Part shown: piece by piece, positions 4,556-30,890 of the stretch | Layout of the letters: every line of letters begins with the position of its first letter | Position numbering within the stretch: position 1 is the first letter of the stretch | NCBI GenBank assembly: GCA_001897535.1 | Contig: MKTC01000035.1 | Location: 1-55,372 of the forward strand | Direction: 5' to 3' | DNA: 55,372 nucleotides | Source: Bacteroidetes bacterium 37-13 | Lineage (GTDB): Bacteria; Bacteroidota; Bacteroidia; Chitinophagales; LD1 | The notes under the pieces: model-generated | The model's database searches: none | What the model saw: only the letters and a program-made list of their open reading frames with translations | What the model was told of the DNA's origin: nothing | Position numbers and translations under genes: made by a program

Positions 4556-5596
4556 CTAAATTACAGTAACCAATAAGCTATCTGTTTGTGGAATTAATCT
4601 GCCAAAAGAGTTTATCGGATAACCGATATTTTGCATCAACTGTTCAAATTCATTTGTTGTGTTTTCTTCTACTGCAATAAGCAACCCACCATTTGTTTGC
4701 GGGTCTGCCAAAACCTGAATTTGCCTTTCTGATAATTGGCTTACTTTATGCCCATAACTTAGCCAGTTTCTATTGGTTCCACCCGGAATACAATTTTGTT
4801 CTAAATAGCTGTTGAGAGAAGCAATTACAGGCACTTTAGCAAATTCAATTTCTGCCGAAACCTTGCTGCCTTCGCACATTTCGCACAAGTGCCCAAGCAA
4901 GCCAAAACCGGTAACATCTGTCATTGCGCTCACACCGGAAATTTTTCCGAGTTTTTCGCCCACTCGGTTTAGTTTAGTCATGCTTTCAAGAATTATTTCC
5001 GCATCGTTTGAGAGCAATTTCCCTTGCTTTTGTGCCGTGCTTAAAGCGCCAACACCTAATGGTTTTGTGAGGTAAAGTTTACAGCCGGCAGTAGCAGTAG
5101 AATTGCGCTTTAAGTTTTCTAAAGCAACCATGCCATTTACTGCCAACCCAAAAATCGGTTCAGGACTATCAATGCTGTGCCCTCCGGAAATAGCGATTCC
5201 TGCTTCTTTGCAAATACTGCGAGCACCCTCTAAAACTTGCGCGGCAACTTCGGGAGCTAATTTACTTATAGGCCAGCCTAAAATAGCAATGGCAAGTATT
5301 GGTTTGCCGCCCATAGCATAAATATCGCTAATGGAATTTGCTGCTGCAATTTTCCCGAAATTGTATGGATTGTCCACTATCGGCATAAAAAAATCGGTAG
5401 TGGAAATTAAGGCATAGCCGTTCCCTAAATCTAATACTGCAGCATCGTCTCTTTCAGCGTTTCCAACTATTAAGTTGGGGCTGAATTGTTGTGGTGTTTC
5501 GGTATGCAAAATGGTGCTTAATACGGCAGGGCTTATTTTACAGCCACAACCCGCACCATGTGAATATTGGGTGAGTTTTATATCTTCAAAATTCAT
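4556..5596 (-). CDS. selD: Selenide, water dikinase
   Basis: SelD makes selenophosphate from selenide and ATP, the selenium donor for 2-selenouridine in tRNA and for selenocysteine. The N-terminus carries QYSHGAGCGCK, with Cys17 and Lys20 at the positions known to be catalytic in the E. coli enzyme. The active residue is cysteine, not selenocysteine, so no UGA recoding is needed. The length of 346 is normal. It starts two bases after the stop of mnmH on the same strand, which ties this SelD to tRNA modification. Confidence 0.96.
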   Translation of the reverse strand: MNFEDIKLTQYSHGAGCGCKISPAVLSTILHTETPQQFSPNLIVGNAERDDAAVLDLGNGYALISTTDFFMPIVDNPYNFGKIAAANSISDIYAMGGKPILAIAILGWPISKLAPEVAAQVLEGARSICKEAGIAISGGHSIDSPEPIFGLAVNGMVALENLKRNSTATAGCKLYLTKPLGVGALSTAQKQGKLLSNDAEIILESMTKLNRVGEKLGKISGVSAMTDVTGFGLLGHLCEMCEGSKVSAEIEFAKVPVIASLNSYLEQNCIPGGTNRNWLSYGHKVSQLSERQIQVLADPQTNGGLLIAVEENTTNEFEQLMQNIGYPINSFGRLIPQTDSLLVTVI

Positions 5597-6882: not shown

Positions 6883-8082
6883 GTGCAAAAACAATATTCA
6901 TTATTACGTACATTATTTACTATAACTATTGTAATAATTGGAAGTGGAACAATAGCCACAGCAGGAGACGGCAACAATTTATTTTCAAACATAACAGAGC
7001 AGTGCCACTACGAATCGCAAAGTATGATACAGATGGCGCAATGTAGAGCGAGTGAACTTATTGATTCGTTTTACCGTAAACGTTGTAAGAATGATGGATT
7101 TAATGGTGCGGTAATGGTGGCAAAAGATGGAGTGCCTATTTACAGCAACACATTTGGATATGCCAATTTACAAAAGCGCGATACACTTTCGTTGCAGAGT
7201 TCTTTTCAATTAGCCTCTGTATCTAAAACGCTTACTGCTTCTGCTATTTTGTTTTTGGCAGAAAAAGGATTGGTATCTTTAGATGATTCTATCCAGCAAT
7301 TTTTTCCTGAATTCCCATATCGGGGCATTACATTAAAAATGCTTTTAAGCCACAGAACAGGCTTGCCCGATTACACTTATTTCCCTAAAGAATATTTTAA
7401 TACTTCAAGTAAGTATATTACAAATAGTGATGTAGTAAATTGCTTTATCACGCGAAAGCCACCATTGCGCTGTAAGCCGGATCACATGTTTATTTATTGC
7501 AACACAAACTATGCTTTACTTGCATCGGTGGTAGAAAATGTATCGAGGATGAGTTTTGGTGAATTTATGAATAAAGTAATATTTGAACCGCTGAACATGA
7601 CCAATACTTTTGTGTATAATCCTTACGATACTGCACAGCAGGCTTTAAATACTTATGATAGAAAAAGCCGCATTTGGAACGATAATATGTATGATGGTGT
7701 TTATGGAGATAAAGGAATTTATTCATCGGCAGAAGACTTACTTAAGTGGGATGTAGCTTTGCGCAGCGGCAAAATTTTAACCGCTGAAAGTTTGAAAGAA
7801 GCTTACACGCCACAAAACACTGATCGCTATTCTTTTGCCCGCGAAAAGGAAAAAAATTATGGATACGGTTGGCGCATGAGCCAGCAACCGGATAATTCGT
7901 ATTTAATATACCACAACGGATTTTGGCACGGTGCCAATACTGTATTTGCACGCGACATAAATAATGGCTACACAATTATTGTATTAGGTAATAAGAGCAA
8001 CCAAAACAATTATTGGACCCAACCTGTATGGGATATATTAAAACAGCTAAATGAAGTAGAAAACTTAGCTGCAACACAGTAA
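6883..8082 (+). CDS. Exported beta-lactamase-family serine hydrolase (class C / PBP-like)
   Basis: This 399-residue protein has the penicillin-binding-protein/class C beta-lactamase fold. The motifs seen are S-x-x-K at Ser112-Lys115 (SVSK), Y-x-N at Tyr205-Asn207 (YCN), and an H-x-G third box in HNGFWHG. An N-terminal hydrophobic stretch (about residues 8-27, ending TATA) is a signal peptide, so it acts in the periplasm or outside. Members cleave D-amino-acid peptides or esters; few are true beta-lactamases. The start is a GTG, preceded by a 255-base leader region with alternative stem-loops. It stands alone between divergent mnmH and the downstream mscS. Confidence 0.88.
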   Translation: MQKQYSLLRTLFTITIVIIGSGTIATAGDGNNLFSNITEQCHYESQSMIQMAQCRASELIDSFYRKRCKNDGFNGAVMVAKDGVPIYSNTFGYANLQKRDTLSLQSSFQLASVSKTLTASAILFLAEKGLVSLDDSIQQFFPEFPYRGITLKMLLSHRTGLPDYTYFPKEYFNTSSKYITNSDVVNCFITRKPPLRCKPDHMFIYCNTNYALLASVVENVSRMSFGEFMNKVIFEPLNMTNTFVYNPYDTAQQALNTYDRKSRIWNDNMYDGVYGDKGIYSSAEDLLKWDVALRSGKILTAESLKEAYTPQNTDRYSFAREKEKNYGYGWRMSQQPDNSYLIYHNGFWHGANTVFARDINNGYTIIVLGNKSNQNNYWTQPVWDILKQLNEVENLAATQ

Positions 8083-13493: not shown

Positions 13494-14134
13494 ACTCCGG
13501 CAAGTTTGCAAACTTCTCTAAACTCGCTCAACACAATTGCTGTTGCTCCCCAAATAATATGTTCTTGATACACAAAAGCAGGAACTGTGGTGTACATACT
13601 GTTTCCAAGTTGCATTTTTATTTGCTTTATGTTATTATCATTTTTAAAAAATGAAAGTGGAATTTCTACGATTTTTTCAACTTCATTTTCTTGTGCTTTA
13701 AATGGAATTGATTCTTTTAAATAGCCAACAACCGGCTGCACTAAAAAATTACTTGGCGGAATATAAAGCTCCGAAAGCAAGCCTAAAATTTCAACCTTTT
13801 TTTGAGGTATACCAACTTCTTCTTCTGTTTCGCGTAGCGATGTGGCAATCAAATTTTCATCACCTGCTTCTAATTTTCCACCCGGAAAACTCATTTGGCC
13901 GCTGTGGACACCAGCATATTTTTTTCTTTGTGTAAAAACAGTAAACCAATTATTGTTTTTCTCATAAAGCAACATCAGCACTCCACTGTGTCTTGGATTC
14001 ATTGCCGCAATGGCAGACTTATCTAATCGCTGCCGATAAGGTGCCATTTTATATTGCACATCTTCGCCAGGTAAATTGCGCTTTAATTGCTCAAAAATAC
14101 AGTTAATAAAAGGAGAAAAATTTTCTATTGCCAT
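13490..14134 (-). CDS. Nudix hydrolase, CoA pyrophosphatase-like
   Basis: The 214-residue protein carries a complete Nudix box: GGKLEAGD, then RETEEEVGI with the Mg-binding glutamates. The preceding MSFPGGK and the upstream PRHSGVLML segment match the CoA-pyrophosphatase (NudL/YeaB) subgroup, which splits CoA to phosphopantetheine and 3',5'-ADP. The subgroup call is from motifs only. The gene is divergent from the coiled-coil gene at 14193 and converges on yidD with a four-base stop overlap. Confidence 0.88.
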
Positions 14135-14192
14135 ATTTGGGCGAAAGAACTTATTTTGCAGCCCTTTTTAAAATTGTTTTTAGAATTTATTC

Positions 14193-25642: not shown

Positions 25643-26500
25643 CTAAGCTAAAATGAGTTCAATAAATCTTGTGCCGTCTTTGGCATAAATTTCTTGCAGG
25701 TCTTTTATTTTGGGAATTATCTTTTGGGCATCATTCAGGCTGATGGTTAGCTTTTCAACTTCTTCAAACATCAATCCTTCTGCCTTCATCCAACTTTCTA
25801 TTTTAGAAAATGGTTCTTCTACTAAAGTATCAAAATCTTTCCAATCTTTTCGCACCACAAAAATTCTGTTTTTTACACCATAATCATCAGTAGGAGAGAG
25901 GTTTCCATGAATCATATCATAGATAGAATCATTTGCGGAATGATCTACCAGAAATGAGTAGTAGTCAATATCTTCTTCTAAATTTTCATCGTTATCATAT
26001 TCTTCATTTAGCTCTACACGTATCACTCTATCTTTATGTTTTAAAGTGTAATATTTTTGAGTTTCTAATGTGGTGAGGTATTGTGCATGTTCGGGTAATG
26101 GTTCGTTTAATTCTTTCAACAAAAAGAGTGCAACAGAAACATTTTCCCATGTCTTTGCATTCGGTTCAAGGCGCGTAATTTCTGCTTGAATATCTATTGC
26201 TTTTGCATCTAATAGTTTACTGAGCAAATGGTTTTCTTCTGCCGGCACAAAGCCAATTTTCTTTTTATTCCAATGCAGCGCAACAGCACAATCATCATAT
26301 TTATTTTCTGGCTCGCGCACCAATTCCAGCATATCGCCTTCTTTCATTTCGTTTAGCAATTTGGGACCGTTGTAATATTGAAATCCGCGCACAAAACTTT
26401 GCAACAAATATATTTTACTGTATTGCTTTATCCACTTGGTGGGAAGTTTGCCTATGCCTACGCTCAGCAGCGTTTGTTTTATGAAGTCTAAACGGTTCAT
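25643..26500 (-). CDS. HIRAN-domain protein
   Basis: The 285-residue protein has a HIRAN domain at about residues 33-115 (FVRGFQYYNG, then REPENKYDDCAVALHW and KKIGFVPAEENHLLSKLL). HIRAN domains recognise 3' ends or damaged DNA in helicases such as HLTF; stand-alone bacterial versions are poorly understood. The rest of the protein is acidic and I do not recognise it. A mildly hydrophobic N-terminus (FIKQTLLSVGIGKLP) looks like a degenerate signal. The gene sits 58 bases downstream of the cas9 stump on the same strand, in the space where the missing cas genes would have been. Confidence 0.82.
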   Translation of the reverse strand: MNRLDFIKQTLLSVGIGKLPTKWIKQYSKIYLLQSFVRGFQYYNGPKLLNEMKEGDMLELVREPENKYDDCAVALHWNKKKIGFVPAEENHLLSKLLDAKAIDIQAEITRLEPNAKTWENVSVALFLLKELNEPLPEHAQYLTTLETQKYYTLKHKDRVIRVELNEEYDNDENLEEDIDYYSFLVDHSANDSIYDMIHGNLSPTDDYGVKNRIFVVRKDWKDFDTLVEEPFSKIESWMKAEGLMFEEVEKLTISLNDAQKIIPKIKDLQEIYAKDGTRFIELILA

Positions 26501-26558: not shown

Positions 26559-27662
26559 CTAATTGCAAGCAGTTGCTTTTTGTTTCTTCAAAATAGCGAT
26601 TAATTCGTCTTTGTAAAATTTCCGCTCGATGGTACGAACGAGTTTCCCAATAATTTTCTGTTTTGGATTTTGAAGTAGAGTTTCGTAGATGTAAGTGCCG
26701 ACTGTTTTATTGCTGTTTTTGATAGTAATTTCAGTTCTTGCTTTTATTTTCTTGTAAATTTTATCTTGGTCTTTTTTTGACATTAGATTAATTTCATCAA
26801 AAGAAGGAAGCGGAGTGATTTTTCGTTTTTCTTTCCCGGTAGTGTCTGTTCGTTTATCTTTTACTATTTTTATTACACCATTTTCATACTCTTCAGTAAT
26901 TAAAAACTCTCTTTCTGTATTTAGCCAATTTGGTTCAGAAGTAAACGTTGCAGAATATTCCCAACCATTTTCAAATTGAAATTTATACCAAGTTTTTTTA
27001 TTGTTCTTTTTGTCTATTTCTCCTTTTTCAACTGATACTATTTTTAAAAGTTCACAGTATTCTTTAATGTCGGAATTATTTTCCTCCTCTTCCCCTCTCA
27101 ATTGGTAATAACCTCGTTTTTGATTGAAATTTAAAATGAGCCAAGCTAATTCTTCTTTTTCCAATCGTTGGGTCAATGCTTTTTTTCGCAAATAGTAAAT
27201 CGTCCAATCGTAAGGAATTAATTTTCCGTTAGAAACTAATTCTGGTTGATGAGATTTGAATTCTTCCAGCATTTCTTGAAACGATTTTTTGAAAATAAAT
27301 TCTGAACCATGGTAAGCTAATTTTGGCTCCGTTTCTTCTTTAAATTTTCCAAACCGTTTAGTAAAATCAATTTGCGCAGCAAAATGTTCAGGTAAAAAAC
27401 CTAAAGCATTCAACACACGGTGTAATCGTTCTCTCCTTAAAAGATTTCTTTCTCTTAATCGTCTTATTCCTCTGAAATTTGTTCTGTCGGCAGTTTTTGA
27501 AACAGAACCACCTTCTGCAAATTTCCCAATTTCACCTGCATCCATCGGAATAATCCTACTCCCCATTCCAATTATCCCACCTTTTTTGTTGTCAAAGTCT
27601 TGTTGAATTAATGCCCATCCAATACTATTTGTCCCTAAATCTAATCCTAAAATCTTTTTCAT
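26559..27662 (-). pseudogene. cas9: Truncated Cas9 (type II-C), N-terminal stump
   Basis: The open frame is 367 residues, about a quarter of a full Bacteroidota Cas9. It has the RuvC-I motif KKILGLDLGTNSIGWAL with catalytic Asp8. The arginine-rich bridge helix is at about 60-83 (RTNFRGIRRLRERNLLRRER), and the early recognition-lobe sequence has WLILNFNQKRGYYQ. Homology stops abruptly near residue 361 (AILKKQK), then ATACN and a stop. RuvC-II, HNH, RuvC-III and the PAM-interacting domain are missing and are not found in any frame downstream. It cannot cleave DNA as a normal Cas9. There is no internal frameshift, so loss is recent or the stump is kept for some purpose. Confidence 0.93.
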
Positions 27663-27699
27663 AGTGTATGTTTTTTAGTTTTAAAAAGTTTGCTATTTT

Positions 27700-27780
27700 A
27701 GCAAAACTTTTTGATAGCAAATCACAATAAGGATTATTCCGTTGTGAAAACATTTAAGGCGGGGCAACTCGCCTTTTTTT
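27700..27780 (+). ncRNA. Probable tracrRNA of a type II-C CRISPR system
   Basis: Divergent from cas9, this plus-strand segment has an anti-repeat (TGATAGCAAATCACAA, 27712-27727) that pairs with the start of the repeat remnant at 25468 with two mismatches. It is followed by a small GGATTATTCC hairpin and the CGTTGTGAAAACATTTAAGG stretch that I recall from Bacteroidota tracrRNAs, and it ends in a terminator. The 5' end is not determined; an inverted repeat at 27683-27712 may belong to it or to its promoter. Confidence 0.72.
27756..27780 (+). terminator. Terminator of the tracrRNA
   Basis: AAGGCG and CGCCTT form the stem around a GGGCAACT loop, followed by seven T. The GGCGGGGCAACTCGCC form is the 3' end expected for a tracrRNA. 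Confidence 0.8.
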
Positions 27781-27821
27781 ATTCCATACAAATGTTTGCA
27801 CTTTTTAATTGAGATTTAGAT

Positions 27822-27848
27822 TTTGTTTTCCTGAAACCTTTATCTTTG
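27822..27848 (+). promoter_or_regulatory. Bacteroidota promoter (TTTG-N15-TATCTTTG) of the metallophosphatase
   Basis: TATCTTTG at 27841-27848 is an exact -7 box. TTTG at 27822-27825 is 15 bases upstream of it, shorter than the usual spacing. The ATG follows four bases after the box. The same octamer occurs in the CRISPR repeat remnant at 25504. Confidence 0.45.
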
Positions 27849-27852
27849 TTTA

Positions 27853-28773
27853 ATGCAAATTAACCGTAGAGAATTTTTAAGAAAATCTGGTGCCGCAGCA
27901 GGTTTGTTGCTGGCTGCAAATTTCCCTTTTGAGGCTTTCGCAAATGGTGAAGTAAAAAAGCTCACCATACTTCATACCAACGACCAACATTCACACATAG
28001 AACCTTTCCCGATGGATGGCGGACGTTTTCAAGGTTTGGGTGGTTTTGCAAATCGCGCTACGGCAATAAAAAAAATACGCAGCGAAGAGAAAAATGTATT
28101 ACTGTTTGATAGCGGAGATATTTGGCAGGGCACACCTTACTTTAATATGTTCAATGGCTCGCTGGAATTTAAACTGATGAGCGAAATGGGTTATGATGCA
28201 AGTACTTTTGGCAATCATGATTTTGATAATGGAATTGATGCAATAAATAAGTATATGCCATTGGCAAATTTTCCATTTATATGTTCAAATTACGATTTTA
28301 AAAACACGGTTTTAAATGGTAAAACTTTGCCTTACAAAATCTTTAAAGTTGATGGAATAAAAGTTGGAGTGTTTGGATTAGGAATTGAGTTGAATGGATT
28401 GGTATTGAAATCGCTTTATGGAGAAACAGTTTACCAAGATCCAATTAGTGTAGCTAACAAAATGGCAAGTCTTTTGCGCAACGATTTAAAATGTGATTTA
28501 GTGGTTTGCCTTTCGCACTTGGGCTATAAATACAAAGAAGATAAAGTGAGCGATTTAACTTTAGCCTACAATACCAAAAATATAGATTTAATTTTAGGTG
28601 GACACACGCACACGCTCATGGCAAAACCTGATGAAGTAAAAAATGCAGCAGGCGAGAAAGTATTAGTAAATCAAGTAGGTTGGGCAGGTGTAGCATTAGG
28701 CAGAGTAGATTATTTTTTCGAAAAGAAAAAGCGCGGTGTTTCTATTGCAAATGCACCAATTAAAATTGGCTAG
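27853..28773 (+). CDS. Tat-exported metallophosphatase (5'-nucleotidase N-terminal domain)
   Basis: The 306-residue protein begins with a twin-arginine signal (NRREFLRKSGAAAGLLLAANFP). It continues as a calcineurin-like metallophosphatase with HTNDQHSHIEP, FDSGDIWQGTP, TFGNHDFDNG and LGGHTHT, which supply the bimetal ligands. It corresponds to the catalytic N-terminal domain of UshA-like 5'-nucleotidases and lacks their C-terminal substrate-binding domain. In Bacteroidota that domain is often encoded by a separate neighbouring gene, but it is not adjacent here. It is expected to release phosphate from nucleotides or related esters in the periplasm. Confidence 0.92.
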   Translation: MQINRREFLRKSGAAAGLLLAANFPFEAFANGEVKKLTILHTNDQHSHIEPFPMDGGRFQGLGGFANRATAIKKIRSEEKNVLLFDSGDIWQGTPYFNMFNGSLEFKLMSEMGYDASTFGNHDFDNGIDAINKYMPLANFPFICSNYDFKNTVLNGKTLPYKIFKVDGIKVGVFGLGIELNGLVLKSLYGETVYQDPISVANKMASLLRNDLKCDLVVCLSHLGYKYKEDKVSDLTLAYNTKNIDLILGGHTHTLMAKPDEVKNAAGEKVLVNQVGWAGVALGRVDYFFEKKKRGVSIANAPIKIG

Positions 28774-28824
28774 TAAGCTACATAATTTAGTTCACTTTAT
28801 ATTTTAAAAGTTTTATTTCTAAAG

Positions 28825-28853
28825 TTGCTTAATTGTTTTTTTTTATTAAGCAA
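28825..28853. repeat. Inverted repeat with T-rich loop upstream of dnaA
   Basis: Nine perfectly paired bases (TTGCTTAAT with ATTAAGCAA) flank an 11-base loop of mostly T. It lies between the metallophosphatase and dnaA. It may terminate the former transcript, although the T run is in the loop rather than after the stem. Confidence 0.4.
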
Positions 28854-28900
28854 TTTGCAGACGTATTTTTTCTGAAAAAATCAAGTGTAGAAAAGTTTTT

Positions 28901-28929
28901 TTTTTCACAAGGTTATATACATTTTCACA
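28901..28929 (+). promoter_or_regulatory. Possible DnaA-box cluster upstream of dnaA
   Basis: TTTTTCACA (28901-28909) fits the loose TTWTNCACA pattern, TTATATACA (28913-28921) is two bases from TTATCCACA, and ATTTTCACA (28921-28929) is one base off the loose pattern. Such boxes can mediate dnaA autoregulation or belong to an origin. AT-rich DNA makes chance matches likely. Confidence 0.25.
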
Positions 28930-28989
28930 CCCGTTACCGATAGTTGTACAAAACCTAATTTTCTTAACTAATATAAAACAGACTAAAAC

Positions 28990-30426
28990 ATGACAAAGGA
29001 TAAATCAGCTGCGTCAGTATGGAGTGCTTGCATAGATATTATTAGAGACAACGTGAGTGCCCAAAGTTTCAAAACATGGTTTGAGCCAATAAAGCCGGTT
29101 GATTTAAAAGATTCTGTTCTTACAATTCAAGTGCCATCGCAATTTTTTTATGAATGGTTAGAAGAACATTATGTTTCTTTATTGCGCAAAACTATTAAGC
29201 GTGAATTAGGAAACGATGCGCGATTAGAATATCGCATTGTTGTGGAACACAACGGAACCAATCCCAGTACTGTTGATTACCCGAATTTTAATTCAGGAAA
29301 TGCTTCAAATCCTGAAACAAGTTTTCCGCTTACATTGCAAGGAAACAACATTAAAAATCCATTCGTAATTCCGGGTTTGAAAAAGATAAATATCGATCCA
29401 CAACTAAATTCAAATTGGAACTTCGATAATTTTGTTGAAGGTGATTGCAATCGCCTTGCGCGCAGTGCCGGATATGCTGTTTCGCAAAAACCCGGAGGTA
29501 CAGCTTTTAATCCATTAGTAATTTATGGCGTAGTTGGTTTAGGTAAAACACACTTAGCACAAGCCGTTGGCAACGAAGTGAAACAACTTTATCCAAACAA
29601 AACTGTGTTGTATGTTTCCAGCGAAAAATTTACCAATCAATTTTTTGATGCTGTAAAGAATAATTCAGTAAACGATTTTGTTCACTTCTATCAACTTATT
29701 GATGTGTTGATTGTGGACGATATTCAGTTCTTTAGCAACAAAGAAAAAACACAAGATATTTTCTTCCATATTTTTAATCACCTTCACCAAAACGGAAAAC
29801 AATTAGTATTAACTACCGACCGCTCACCGCGCGATTTAGAAGGTATTGAAGAGCGTTTACTTTCTCGTTTCAAATGGGGCTTGAGTGCTGATTTGCAAGT
29901 GCCGGATTTTGAAACTCGTATTGGAATTTTAGAAAAGAAAATGTATGCCGATGGAATTGAATTGCCGCGCGAAGTAGTAGAATTTGTTGCTTACAATATC
30001 AATACAAATGTTCGTGAATTAGAAGCTGCACTTATTGCATTGCTTGCTCAAGCATCATTGAATAAAAAAGATGTTGATGTAGAATTAGCAAAGAAAATAA
30101 TCAAGAACTTTGTGAAGACTATGAGCCGCGAAGTGAGTATAGATTATATTCAAAAAACGGTGTGCGAATACTTTAATGTACCGGTTGATACCTTAAAAGA
30201 AAAAACACGCAAACGCATGGTAGTTCAAGCACGTCAGCTTTCAATGTTCCTTGCTAAAAACTACACTAAAAATTCTTTGAAAGTTATTGGAAAACATTTT
30301 GGCGGTCGCGACCACTCTACTGTAATTCACTCTTGCCAAGCAGTGCAAAATTTAATTGATACCGACCAAGATTTTCGCGAAAGTGTAAATGATATTCAAA
30401 AGAAAATTCAAATGAGTATTTCATAA
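28990..30426 (+). CDS. dnaA: Chromosomal replication initiator protein DnaA
   Basis: DnaA binds the origin, oligomerises with ATP and opens the duplex. The 478 residues show domain I (about 1-85, AWSACIDIIRDNVSAQSFKTWFEP-like), a linker, and the AAA+ core. The core has Walker A GVVGLGKTH near residue 180 and Walker B LIVDDIQFF near 240. The C-terminal DNA-binding domain carries the signature GGRDHSTVIHSC. The length is typical. The 216-base upstream region holds possible DnaA boxes and a hairpin. A strong terminator hairpin follows and runs into the next gene. Confidence 0.97.
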   Translation: MTKDKSAASVWSACIDIIRDNVSAQSFKTWFEPIKPVDLKDSVLTIQVPSQFFYEWLEEHYVSLLRKTIKRELGNDARLEYRIVVEHNGTNPSTVDYPNFNSGNASNPETSFPLTLQGNNIKNPFVIPGLKKINIDPQLNSNWNFDNFVEGDCNRLARSAGYAVSQKPGGTAFNPLVIYGVVGLGKTHLAQAVGNEVKQLYPNKTVLYVSSEKFTNQFFDAVKNNSVNDFVHFYQLIDVLIVDDIQFFSNKEKTQDIFFHIFNHLHQNGKQLVLTTDRSPRDLEGIEERLLSRFKWGLSADLQVPDFETRIGILEKKMYADGIELPREVVEFVAYNINTNVRELEAALIALLAQASLNKKDVDVELAKKIIKNFVKTMSREVSIDYIQKTVCEYFNVPVDTLKEKTRKRMVVQARQLSMFLAKNYTKNSLKVIGKHFGGRDHSTVIHSCQAVQNLIDTDQDFRESVNDIQKKIQMSIS

Positions 30427-30451
30427 TAATTTTCTTTCTATAAAATGTAAC

Positions 30452-30521
30452 AAGCCGTTTCAGGTTTTCGTACACTAAAGGGTAACACCTAAACGAAAAC
30501 ATGAAACGGTTTCTTTTTTTA
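30452..30521 (+). terminator. Terminator hairpin of dnaA that contains the next gene's start codon
   Basis: A 20-bp stem (30452-30471 with 30493-30512, one G-A mismatch and one G-T wobble) encloses a 21-base loop and is followed by a T-rich tract through about 30521. It is 25 bases downstream of the dnaA stop. The mismatched A at 30501 is the first base of the ATG of the lipoprotein gene, and the T tract encodes its signal-peptide Phe and Leu codons. Confidence 0.75.
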
Positions 30522-30890
30522 CTTGTTTCAAGCTCTATTGTATTGGCTTCTTCGTGCACCAAAAACGAAACGCCTTACGAAATTTATTTCTTTACTTCCA
30601 ATAAGAATTTGCCTTCACTATTTGCCACTAAAAGCAATCATTTAATTGCTCCGGTTCAGTTGCGTAAAACACGCGATTATATTACCGACACCTCAACTAA
30701 TAAGCTCATTACTTTTGATAAAGAAGTGCGCATTGATGCGGTGGATAAGAACGGACAAGTGGTTGCTACTACAAAATTGAATTTGAAAGATGATGGCACT
30801 TTTATTTCTACAGGAGGTGGTTATTTGCATTATGAAATTAAAGTTTTAAAAGATAGAACTTTGGTGATTGACTATATTAAGCAATTGTAG
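30501..30890 (+). CDS. Small lipoprotein of unknown function
   Basis: The 129-residue protein opens with a clean lipoprotein signal (MKRFLFLLVSSSIVLASSC, lipid-accepting Cys19). A beta-rich mature part of about 110 residues follows, with no motif I know. The start is fixed by the signal peptide and falls inside the right arm of the hairpin that ends dnaA, with FLFLL codons forming the T tract. Either the gene is transcribed by read-through, in which case the structure would hide its start, or it has an unseen promoter in the loop. It is likely specific to this lineage. Confidence 0.7.
   Translation: MKRFLFLLVSSSIVLASSCTKNETPYEIYFFTSNKNLPSLFATKSNHLIAPVQLRKTRDYITDTSTNKLITFDKEVRIDAVDKNGQVVATTKLNLKDDGTFISTGGGYLHYEIKVLKDRTLVIDYIKQL

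Follow-up and report, generated by a model that had tools for sequence, protein, structure and literature searches.

A probable, recently inactivated type II-C CRISPR-Cas locus that retains a Cas9 N-terminal stump beside its tracrRNA gene

The locus described here is best read as an ordinary, recently inactivated type II-C CRISPR-Cas system, a wreck of the long, CbCas9-like kind, and we put the probability of this reading at roughly 0.83. It lies in Bacteroidetes bacterium 37-13, and the stretch of DNA analyzed, hereafter the window, is one whole contig of 55,372 nucleotides (C35) of a 3.12-Mb draft genome, which consists of 43 contigs and is rated 100% complete. The surviving part is the 5' end of the locus, namely the tracrRNA gene, the start of cas9, and about 361 Cas9 codons, still beside a conserved right-hand neighbor, a metallophosphatase gene (27853..28773, plus strand) that also fixes the position of the locus in the sister species. 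In the proposed course of events, one local deletion would have run from about codon 362 of cas9 to just past its stop codon, fusing the stump to the stretch that precedes a HIRAN-domain protein gene, and cas1, cas2, and the array would have been removed, beyond the HIRAN gene, by another loss or rearrangement. These losses are regarded as young because the remains would otherwise show decay. The tracrRNA is perhaps still transcribed, and since there is neither a Cas9 to load nor a crRNA of its own, the locus should be without CRISPR activity. As a wreck it is ordinary; its value lies in preserving what looks like a young loss of CRISPR.

The Cas9 stump (26559..27662, minus strand) is a frame of 367 codons that comprises RuvC-I, the bridge helix, and part of REC, and of these codons about 361 are Cas9, the last five residues or so (ATACN) being foreign. 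Its residues 4–363 match positions 2–222 of the 1070 positions of TIGR01865 with 120 bits (cut-off 100), a match that spans a fifth of the profile and places the stump in the Cas9 protein family as a remnant. The bridge helix, PF16593, is found at residues 60–94 with 31.8 bits (cut-off 26.3), and of the solved structures CbCas9 (1442 aa) matches best, its residues 3–333 aligning with residues 2–362 of the stump at an E value of 4e-107. A preliminary description of this DNA had reported a cas9 frame open for 367 codons with RuvC-I and a bridge helix, and all four lines of evidence, i.e., the frame, the two profiles, and the CbCas9 match, bear it out. In the alignment, the N-termini of the 12 relatives nearest to the stump show 71–77% identity to it, and no close relative sharing the stump turned up. 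A search of phages with the stump gave no match, and a search of plasmids returned three records carrying Cas9 matches. As a separate observation, three frames of 414–527 codons (L204, L205, and L206) have weak similarity (28–30%) to residues ~240–320 of the long Cas9 proteins, which correspond to the beta-rich part of the stump.

The point at which homology to complete Cas9 proteins stops, 26574..26580 on the minus strand, was deduced by comparison with 62 loci whose cas9 frames exceed 1300 codons and is taken as the deletion junction; these relatives are at best 71–77% identical to the stump, and the ends of the deletion are deduced from them. Fifty of the 65 alignments end there (31 at 26580, 16 at 26577, and three at 26574), three are short, and 12 continue past the stop codon of the stump as gapped, weak tails that in part overlie the beginning of the following gene and are taken for chance matches. 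The comparison with relatives that had been suggested for mapping the deletion gave one narrow end point in most alignments. All other Cas9 matches in the window are weak (E at least 0.05).

The rest of the system is missing well beyond the junction. A type II-C locus requires a Cas9 with RuvC-I, RuvC-II, RuvC-III, and HNH, together with cas1, cas2, and an array with a matching repeat, and none of these was found at the locus. The Cas9 family search of the genome returned the stump alone, and the same search gave full-length matches in G029, G204, and G372; four of the 14 named control genomes produced a signal, none of them above the cut-off. When the missing part of a relative's Cas9 was used as the query, the draft genome gave no match, and the same kind of query, spanning RuvC-II to RuvC-III, matched 95 of the 396 genomes surveyed in the order. 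Two candidates were rejected: a frameshifted or split cas9 gene, since no further Cas9 was found in the window or the genome, and a relocation of the rest of the system together with the only cas1, since that cas1 adjoins a Cas12a remnant and repeats taken to be of the Cas12a type. No CRISPR array was seen in the window between 22000 and 33000, and a genome-wide scan with an 18-nt pattern of the II-C repeat end revealed no array, although one with a diverged repeat end would escape this pattern. With up to two mismatches, the pattern occurs at five places in the genome, against two for the reversed control pattern: one exact copy on contig C7, the tracrRNA itself at one mismatch, and three places at two mismatches. 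The earlier statement that RuvC-II, HNH, and RuvC-III are absent thus holds for the whole draft genome by both kinds of search, and the conclusion that the locus cannot perform guide-dependent cleavage stands, as searches of the draft genome found no more of Cas9 and the repeat-end pattern revealed no array. The claimed absence of cas1 and cas2 is correct for the II-C locus and incorrect for the genome, where a distinct wreck, of type V-A, holds a cas2 and a 5'-truncated cas1, the latter being the sole cas1 match of the genome.

These searches also bear on the idea that cas9 is complete in the strain and that the junction is an artifact of assembly or binning. The genome is indeed a draft of 43 contigs, but searches of this assembly, rated 100% complete, did not recover the missing part of cas9, and a random misjoin is unlikely to have brought in a HIRAN gene of the kind that occupies the slot between cas9 and cas1, so we consider such an error extremely improbable.

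Degraded type II loci are known from Mollicutes and from Campylobacter jejuni RM1221, and in the latter a stop in cas9 accompanies weak expression of tracrRNA and crRNA (PMC3656092, PMC6882279). The window resembles these loci in that cas9 is inactivated and other parts survive, and differs from them in the deletion of most of cas9 and the absence of an array. With the CbCas9-type (long) II-C loci of Bacteroidota it shares a divergent tracrRNA gene before cas9 and a HIRAN gene, which lies near cas9 in five of 80 loci; unlike them, it has no cas9 body, cas1, cas2, or array.

The tracrRNA gene (27700..27780, plus strand, with an approximate 5' end) is divergent from the stump and consists of an anti-repeat that extends to 27728, a core at 27729–27755, and a terminator stem at 27756–27775 followed by a T run. 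A tracrRNA with anti-repeat and terminator had been proposed before, and the intact core, the stem, and the T run agree with it. The motif AATAAGGATTATTCCGT precedes most of the cas9 genes examined; the core motif is absent within 500 nt in six loci (L014, L083, L076, L081, L151, and L158), and these, together with seven duplicates, were omitted from a profile built on 101 loci. In a leave-one-out comparison with this profile, the core stretch of the window (52 nt) ranks 38th of 101, with a score of 85.7 against a median of 82.3, and judged by this rank the locus appears to keep the tracrRNA gene that a type II-C system requires. One conserved base of the anti-repeat is altered, with T at 27715 where 94 of the 101 loci have A. 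An Rfam scan of the window returned no family at the gathering threshold.

Upstream of the core, the plus-strand element TATTTTAG at 27694..27701 is likely the tracrRNA promoter, to judge by its relatives. It lies 35 nt before the core and differs by one base from the TANNTTTG box. In 48 of 102 loci, compared with a mean of 5.1 after shuffling, this box is no more than 60 nt upstream of the core, most commonly at a distance of 34–35 nt; the window has no exact copy of the box before its tracrRNA core. A near-palindrome, AAAAAGTTTGCTATTTTAGCAAAACTTTTT, was also noticed at 27683–27712, between the cas9 start and the tracrRNA core and over the likely promoter, and none was seen by eye in the sister species.

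The remains look very clean for a wreck, both in the stump and in the tracrRNA core, and this counts against the preferred reading. Conservation was assessed on 93 sequences, filtered for coverage, for the start, and for at least 48% identity, with duplicates removed. The stump is unchanged at each of the 76 columns that are at least 97% conserved among the other sequences, and so are 47 of the 93 sequences when it is counted in; at the 129 columns conserved at 90%, the stump has one change against a median of three. Its terminal branch measures 0.180 against a median of 0.150 and ranks 32nd of 93. If the stump is unselected, neutral divergence since its release amounts to less than about 1.7% per site, and the lack of stops alone gives a bound of 4.9%. 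Such a clean stump fits either a release less than about 1.7% of neutral divergence ago or selection.

The preliminary description had left the same choice, between a recent deletion and a kept function of the RNA and the N-terminal protein, and the evidence supports the former well, with all 76 conserved columns retained and a bound of about 1.7% per site if unselected. According to the second option, the tracrRNA and the N-terminal piece, perhaps together with the HIRAN protein, would have retained a role, such as RNA binding or regulation without cleavage. The 76 unchanged columns, the intact tracrRNA core, and the recurrence of a stump next to an intact tracrRNA in two further genomes are compatible with it, but youth explains the conservation equally well, as 47 of the 93 sequences, including the stump, are likewise unchanged, and no source of crRNA was found by the repeat-end pattern. 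An AlphaFold2 model of the stump, computed with 38 sequences, has a mean pLDDT of 74.5 and a pTM of 0.65, and in it the orphan RuvC-I part (the first 60 residues) reaches only 48–67 per ten-residue block, with the cut at residue ~361 falling inside a predicted helix (347–365). A cut within a helix and a RuvC-I part modeled at low confidence speak against a selected domain boundary, and the stumps of the two other genomes end elsewhere. We therefore find no support for a kept function and regard it as very unlikely.

The comparison with other stumps comes from a survey of the order in which 396 genomes, taken from a larger group, were searched and 103 matched, with the matches in short frames examined further. 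Two more N-terminal stumps beside an intact tracrRNA emerged. The first (G372, locus L023) is a frame of 492 aa with homology to about residue 484 of the Cas9 of L025, followed by frames without a Cas9 match, in a genome that has a second, complete Cas9 on contig C26. Its family match extends about ten codons beyond a TAA, and the possibility that L023 (the same contig as G372:C95) is merely frameshifted was dropped, since no Cas9 match follows the 492-aa frame in the stretch examined. The second (G210, locus L175) is a frame of 316 aa whose homology reaches residue ~168 of the sister's Cas9, or position 187 of the profile, and the frame that follows is presumably argS. That these stumps end at ~484 and ~168, compared with ~361 here, favors decay over a selected product.

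The remaining short frames are of other kinds. The rest of Cas9 continues after a frameshift or stop in four genomes (G177, G239, G064, and G047), and contig ends cut cas9 in G010, G030, G078, G075, G351, G089, G033, and probably G173. The Cas9 piece of G087 ends near the start of a contig, its second match, on C91, being weak and unconfirmed; G251 has two inner Cas9 fragments and no tracrRNA motif in 12 kb; G011, G279, and G261 have weak matches to the middle of Cas9 alone; and G345, when re-examined, gave no Cas9 match. The reverse search with the RuvC-II-to-RuvC-III part found no lone C-terminal stump among its 95 matched genomes, as judged from frames and contig positions, with the match in G008 beginning at a contig end. 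Three N-terminal stumps, our own included, against no C-terminal one would be a slight bias toward keeping the N-terminal end; it is only suggestive, and it counts somewhat against a plain wreck.

The stump is followed, in the same orientation, by the gene of the HIRAN-domain protein (25643..26500, minus strand; PF08797, E 3.5e-17). In a neighborhood sample of 80 loci and 1.19 Mb, HIRAN-like genes occur near cas9 in five loci, always in or adjoining the cas9 locus and always on the cas9 strand. Three of them, among the 62 complete loci, are in the slot between cas9 and cas1 (L015 at 6893–7627, after one other gene; L075 at 4822–5295; and L081 at 13697–14167), and the other two are upstream of cas9 in L018 and L026, the match in L026 being short. 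The contents of the slot are otherwise varied, and cas1 was recognized in 59 of the 62 complete loci. Because relatives of the HIRAN gene occupy this slot, the break was probably local. A HIRAN gene is also present in seven of 30 genomes of the family, our own included, and of the others, the three for which a cas9 match is listed (G016, G002, and G005) have it on a different contig from cas9; since such genes occur away from cas9, the position beside the stump could be due to chance, which again tells against the wreck reading.

Among the papers listed by a literature search, none showed a link between HIRAN and II-C loci. The present case adds HIRAN genes as a cargo of the cas9–cas1 slot. 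An accessory gene of some II-C loci is already known in PcrIIC1 of CbCas9, which is described as a PIN-domain protein that binds the C-terminal helix of Cas9 (PMC12669027, PMC13153721). The HIRAN gene of the window is comparable to it as an accessory gene; it differs in encoding a HIRAN protein instead of a PIN-domain protein, and in the window the C-terminal end of Cas9 is gone.

The same genome contains a second wreck, of type V-A, on contig C40 (L136 8399–9765, genes on the minus strand), with a Cas12a stump, a truncated cas1, cas2, and three repeats, which we take to be of the Cas12a type. The stump is an N-terminal piece of about 51 codons that matches positions 1–51 of TIGR04330 with 54.6 bits (cut-off 300), cas1 is 5'-truncated and lacks about the first 114 profile positions, and the wreck adjoins a cytosine methylase gene and a Vsr gene. 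Compared with the prophage stretch described below, the window, and three viral loci, the V-A spacers have at least nine mismatches in their best match, and a scan of viral contigs with two of the three spacers gave no exact match. Both effectors found in the genome, Cas9 and Cas12a, thus remain solely as N-terminal ends, and the loss of most of Cas12a in a similar way suggests a lineage that is shedding CRISPR immunity. That a single genome holds two effectors reduced to their N-terminal ends is a further reason for interest.

At the corresponding place, the sister species of the same genus (G029) has a complete II-C system that is different from that of the stump, with a tracrRNA, a Cas9 of 1223 aa, cas1, cas2, and about 41 repeats. 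Another genome of the genus (G028) gave no Cas9 match and has no cas9 adjoining its metallophosphatase gene. The window aligns with the sister genome over 27543–30889 at 77.5%, and nucleotide collinearity stops at 27543, i.e., at codon 40 of cas9; on the left flank, the desaturase gene, the sole gene aligning within 20 kb, is on another contig in the sister.

The sister Cas9 (L130 9759–13430) appears to be of the long type in residues 1–40 and of the short type thereafter. Identities in residue blocks, for which 36 of 40 loci were usable and four had no recognized start, place it at 85% to the stump in residues 1–40 (62–85% among 16 long Cas9 proteins) and at just 28% in residues 41–90. Its closest short-type relatives, L216 and L215, share 76 and 70% identity with it over residues 41–90, and 61 and 63% over residues 1–40. 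Judged from these identities, the sister Cas9 looks chimeric. Three further loci (L226–L228) also start as the long type (72–82%) and then continue differently, their match being confined to the first ~100 residues.

Two related readings follow the exchange of Cas9 rather than its loss. In the first, the tracrRNA together with the opening codons of cas9 would act as a recombination anchor by which cas9 bodies are swapped in situ, and the window would be a locus that stands empty between exchanges. The apparent chimera at about residue 40, the break in collinearity with the sister at codon 40, and the shuffling of Cas9 in situ that is described for II-C (PMC12669027) all agree with it. The chimera is nonetheless judged from identities, the long-type starts of L226–L228 indicate that such starts may be widely shared, and serving as an anchor would be an outcome that does not itself explain selection; we rate this reading as quite unlikely. 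The second, unlikely though a little less so, takes the tracrRNA and the RuvC-I start as the durable half of the locus, which would remain next to the host gene, with bodies, cas1–cas2, and arrays gained and lost by recombination near codon 40 and with stumps as vacant docking sites; if it were true, a stump could take up another Cas9, as seems to have happened in the sister. What links the locus to in situ shuffling is that the sister carries another Cas9, with a long-type start, at the same place; what separates it is that the Cas9 body of the window was lost and not replaced. The wreck reading remains the one that we prefer, and the pair of species offers a testable case of whether II-C loci exchange Cas9 and keep the tracrRNA end.

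The one exact copy of the repeat end in the genome is a solitary II-C repeat outside any array, in a prophage on contig C7 (L190 9965–9991, minus strand), where it reads GTTGTGATTTGCTTTCAAAAGAGTATC and comes directly after a DUF3164 gene and before a tRNA-like fold, at which ARAGORN calls no tRNA. The neighborhood includes, besides the DUF3164 gene, an AAA ATPase gene and a 683-aa frame without a Pfam hit; from the layout, we take this frame for a Mu-type transposase and the prophage as Mu-like. An IMG/VR contig is identical to the prophage stretch across the 14,523 bases compared. CRISPR repeats that stand alone in viral genomes can function as RNA anti-CRISPRs, or Racrs (PMC10651486); the main text of that paper contains no mention of II-C or tracrRNA. 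As a solitary CRISPR repeat in a viral genome, the C7 repeat shows this trait of a Racr and is, from its sequence, a candidate RNA anti-CRISPR that would fit the tracrRNA of the window. The duplex between the two has a computed energy of −31.4; shuffled sequences average −25.0 and reach −34.3 at best. Since shuffling can yield a stronger duplex, the energy lends no support beyond that of the match in sequence. Single copies of the repeat motif are present in nine of the 12 viral stretches found, including the IMG/VR contig and two with identical context. Those in the viral contigs L191, L193, L194, L195, L197, L199, and L200 are single II-C repeat motifs, of which the copies in L193, L197, and L200 look, by eye, like whole repeats, and the copy in L199 lies inside a reading frame.
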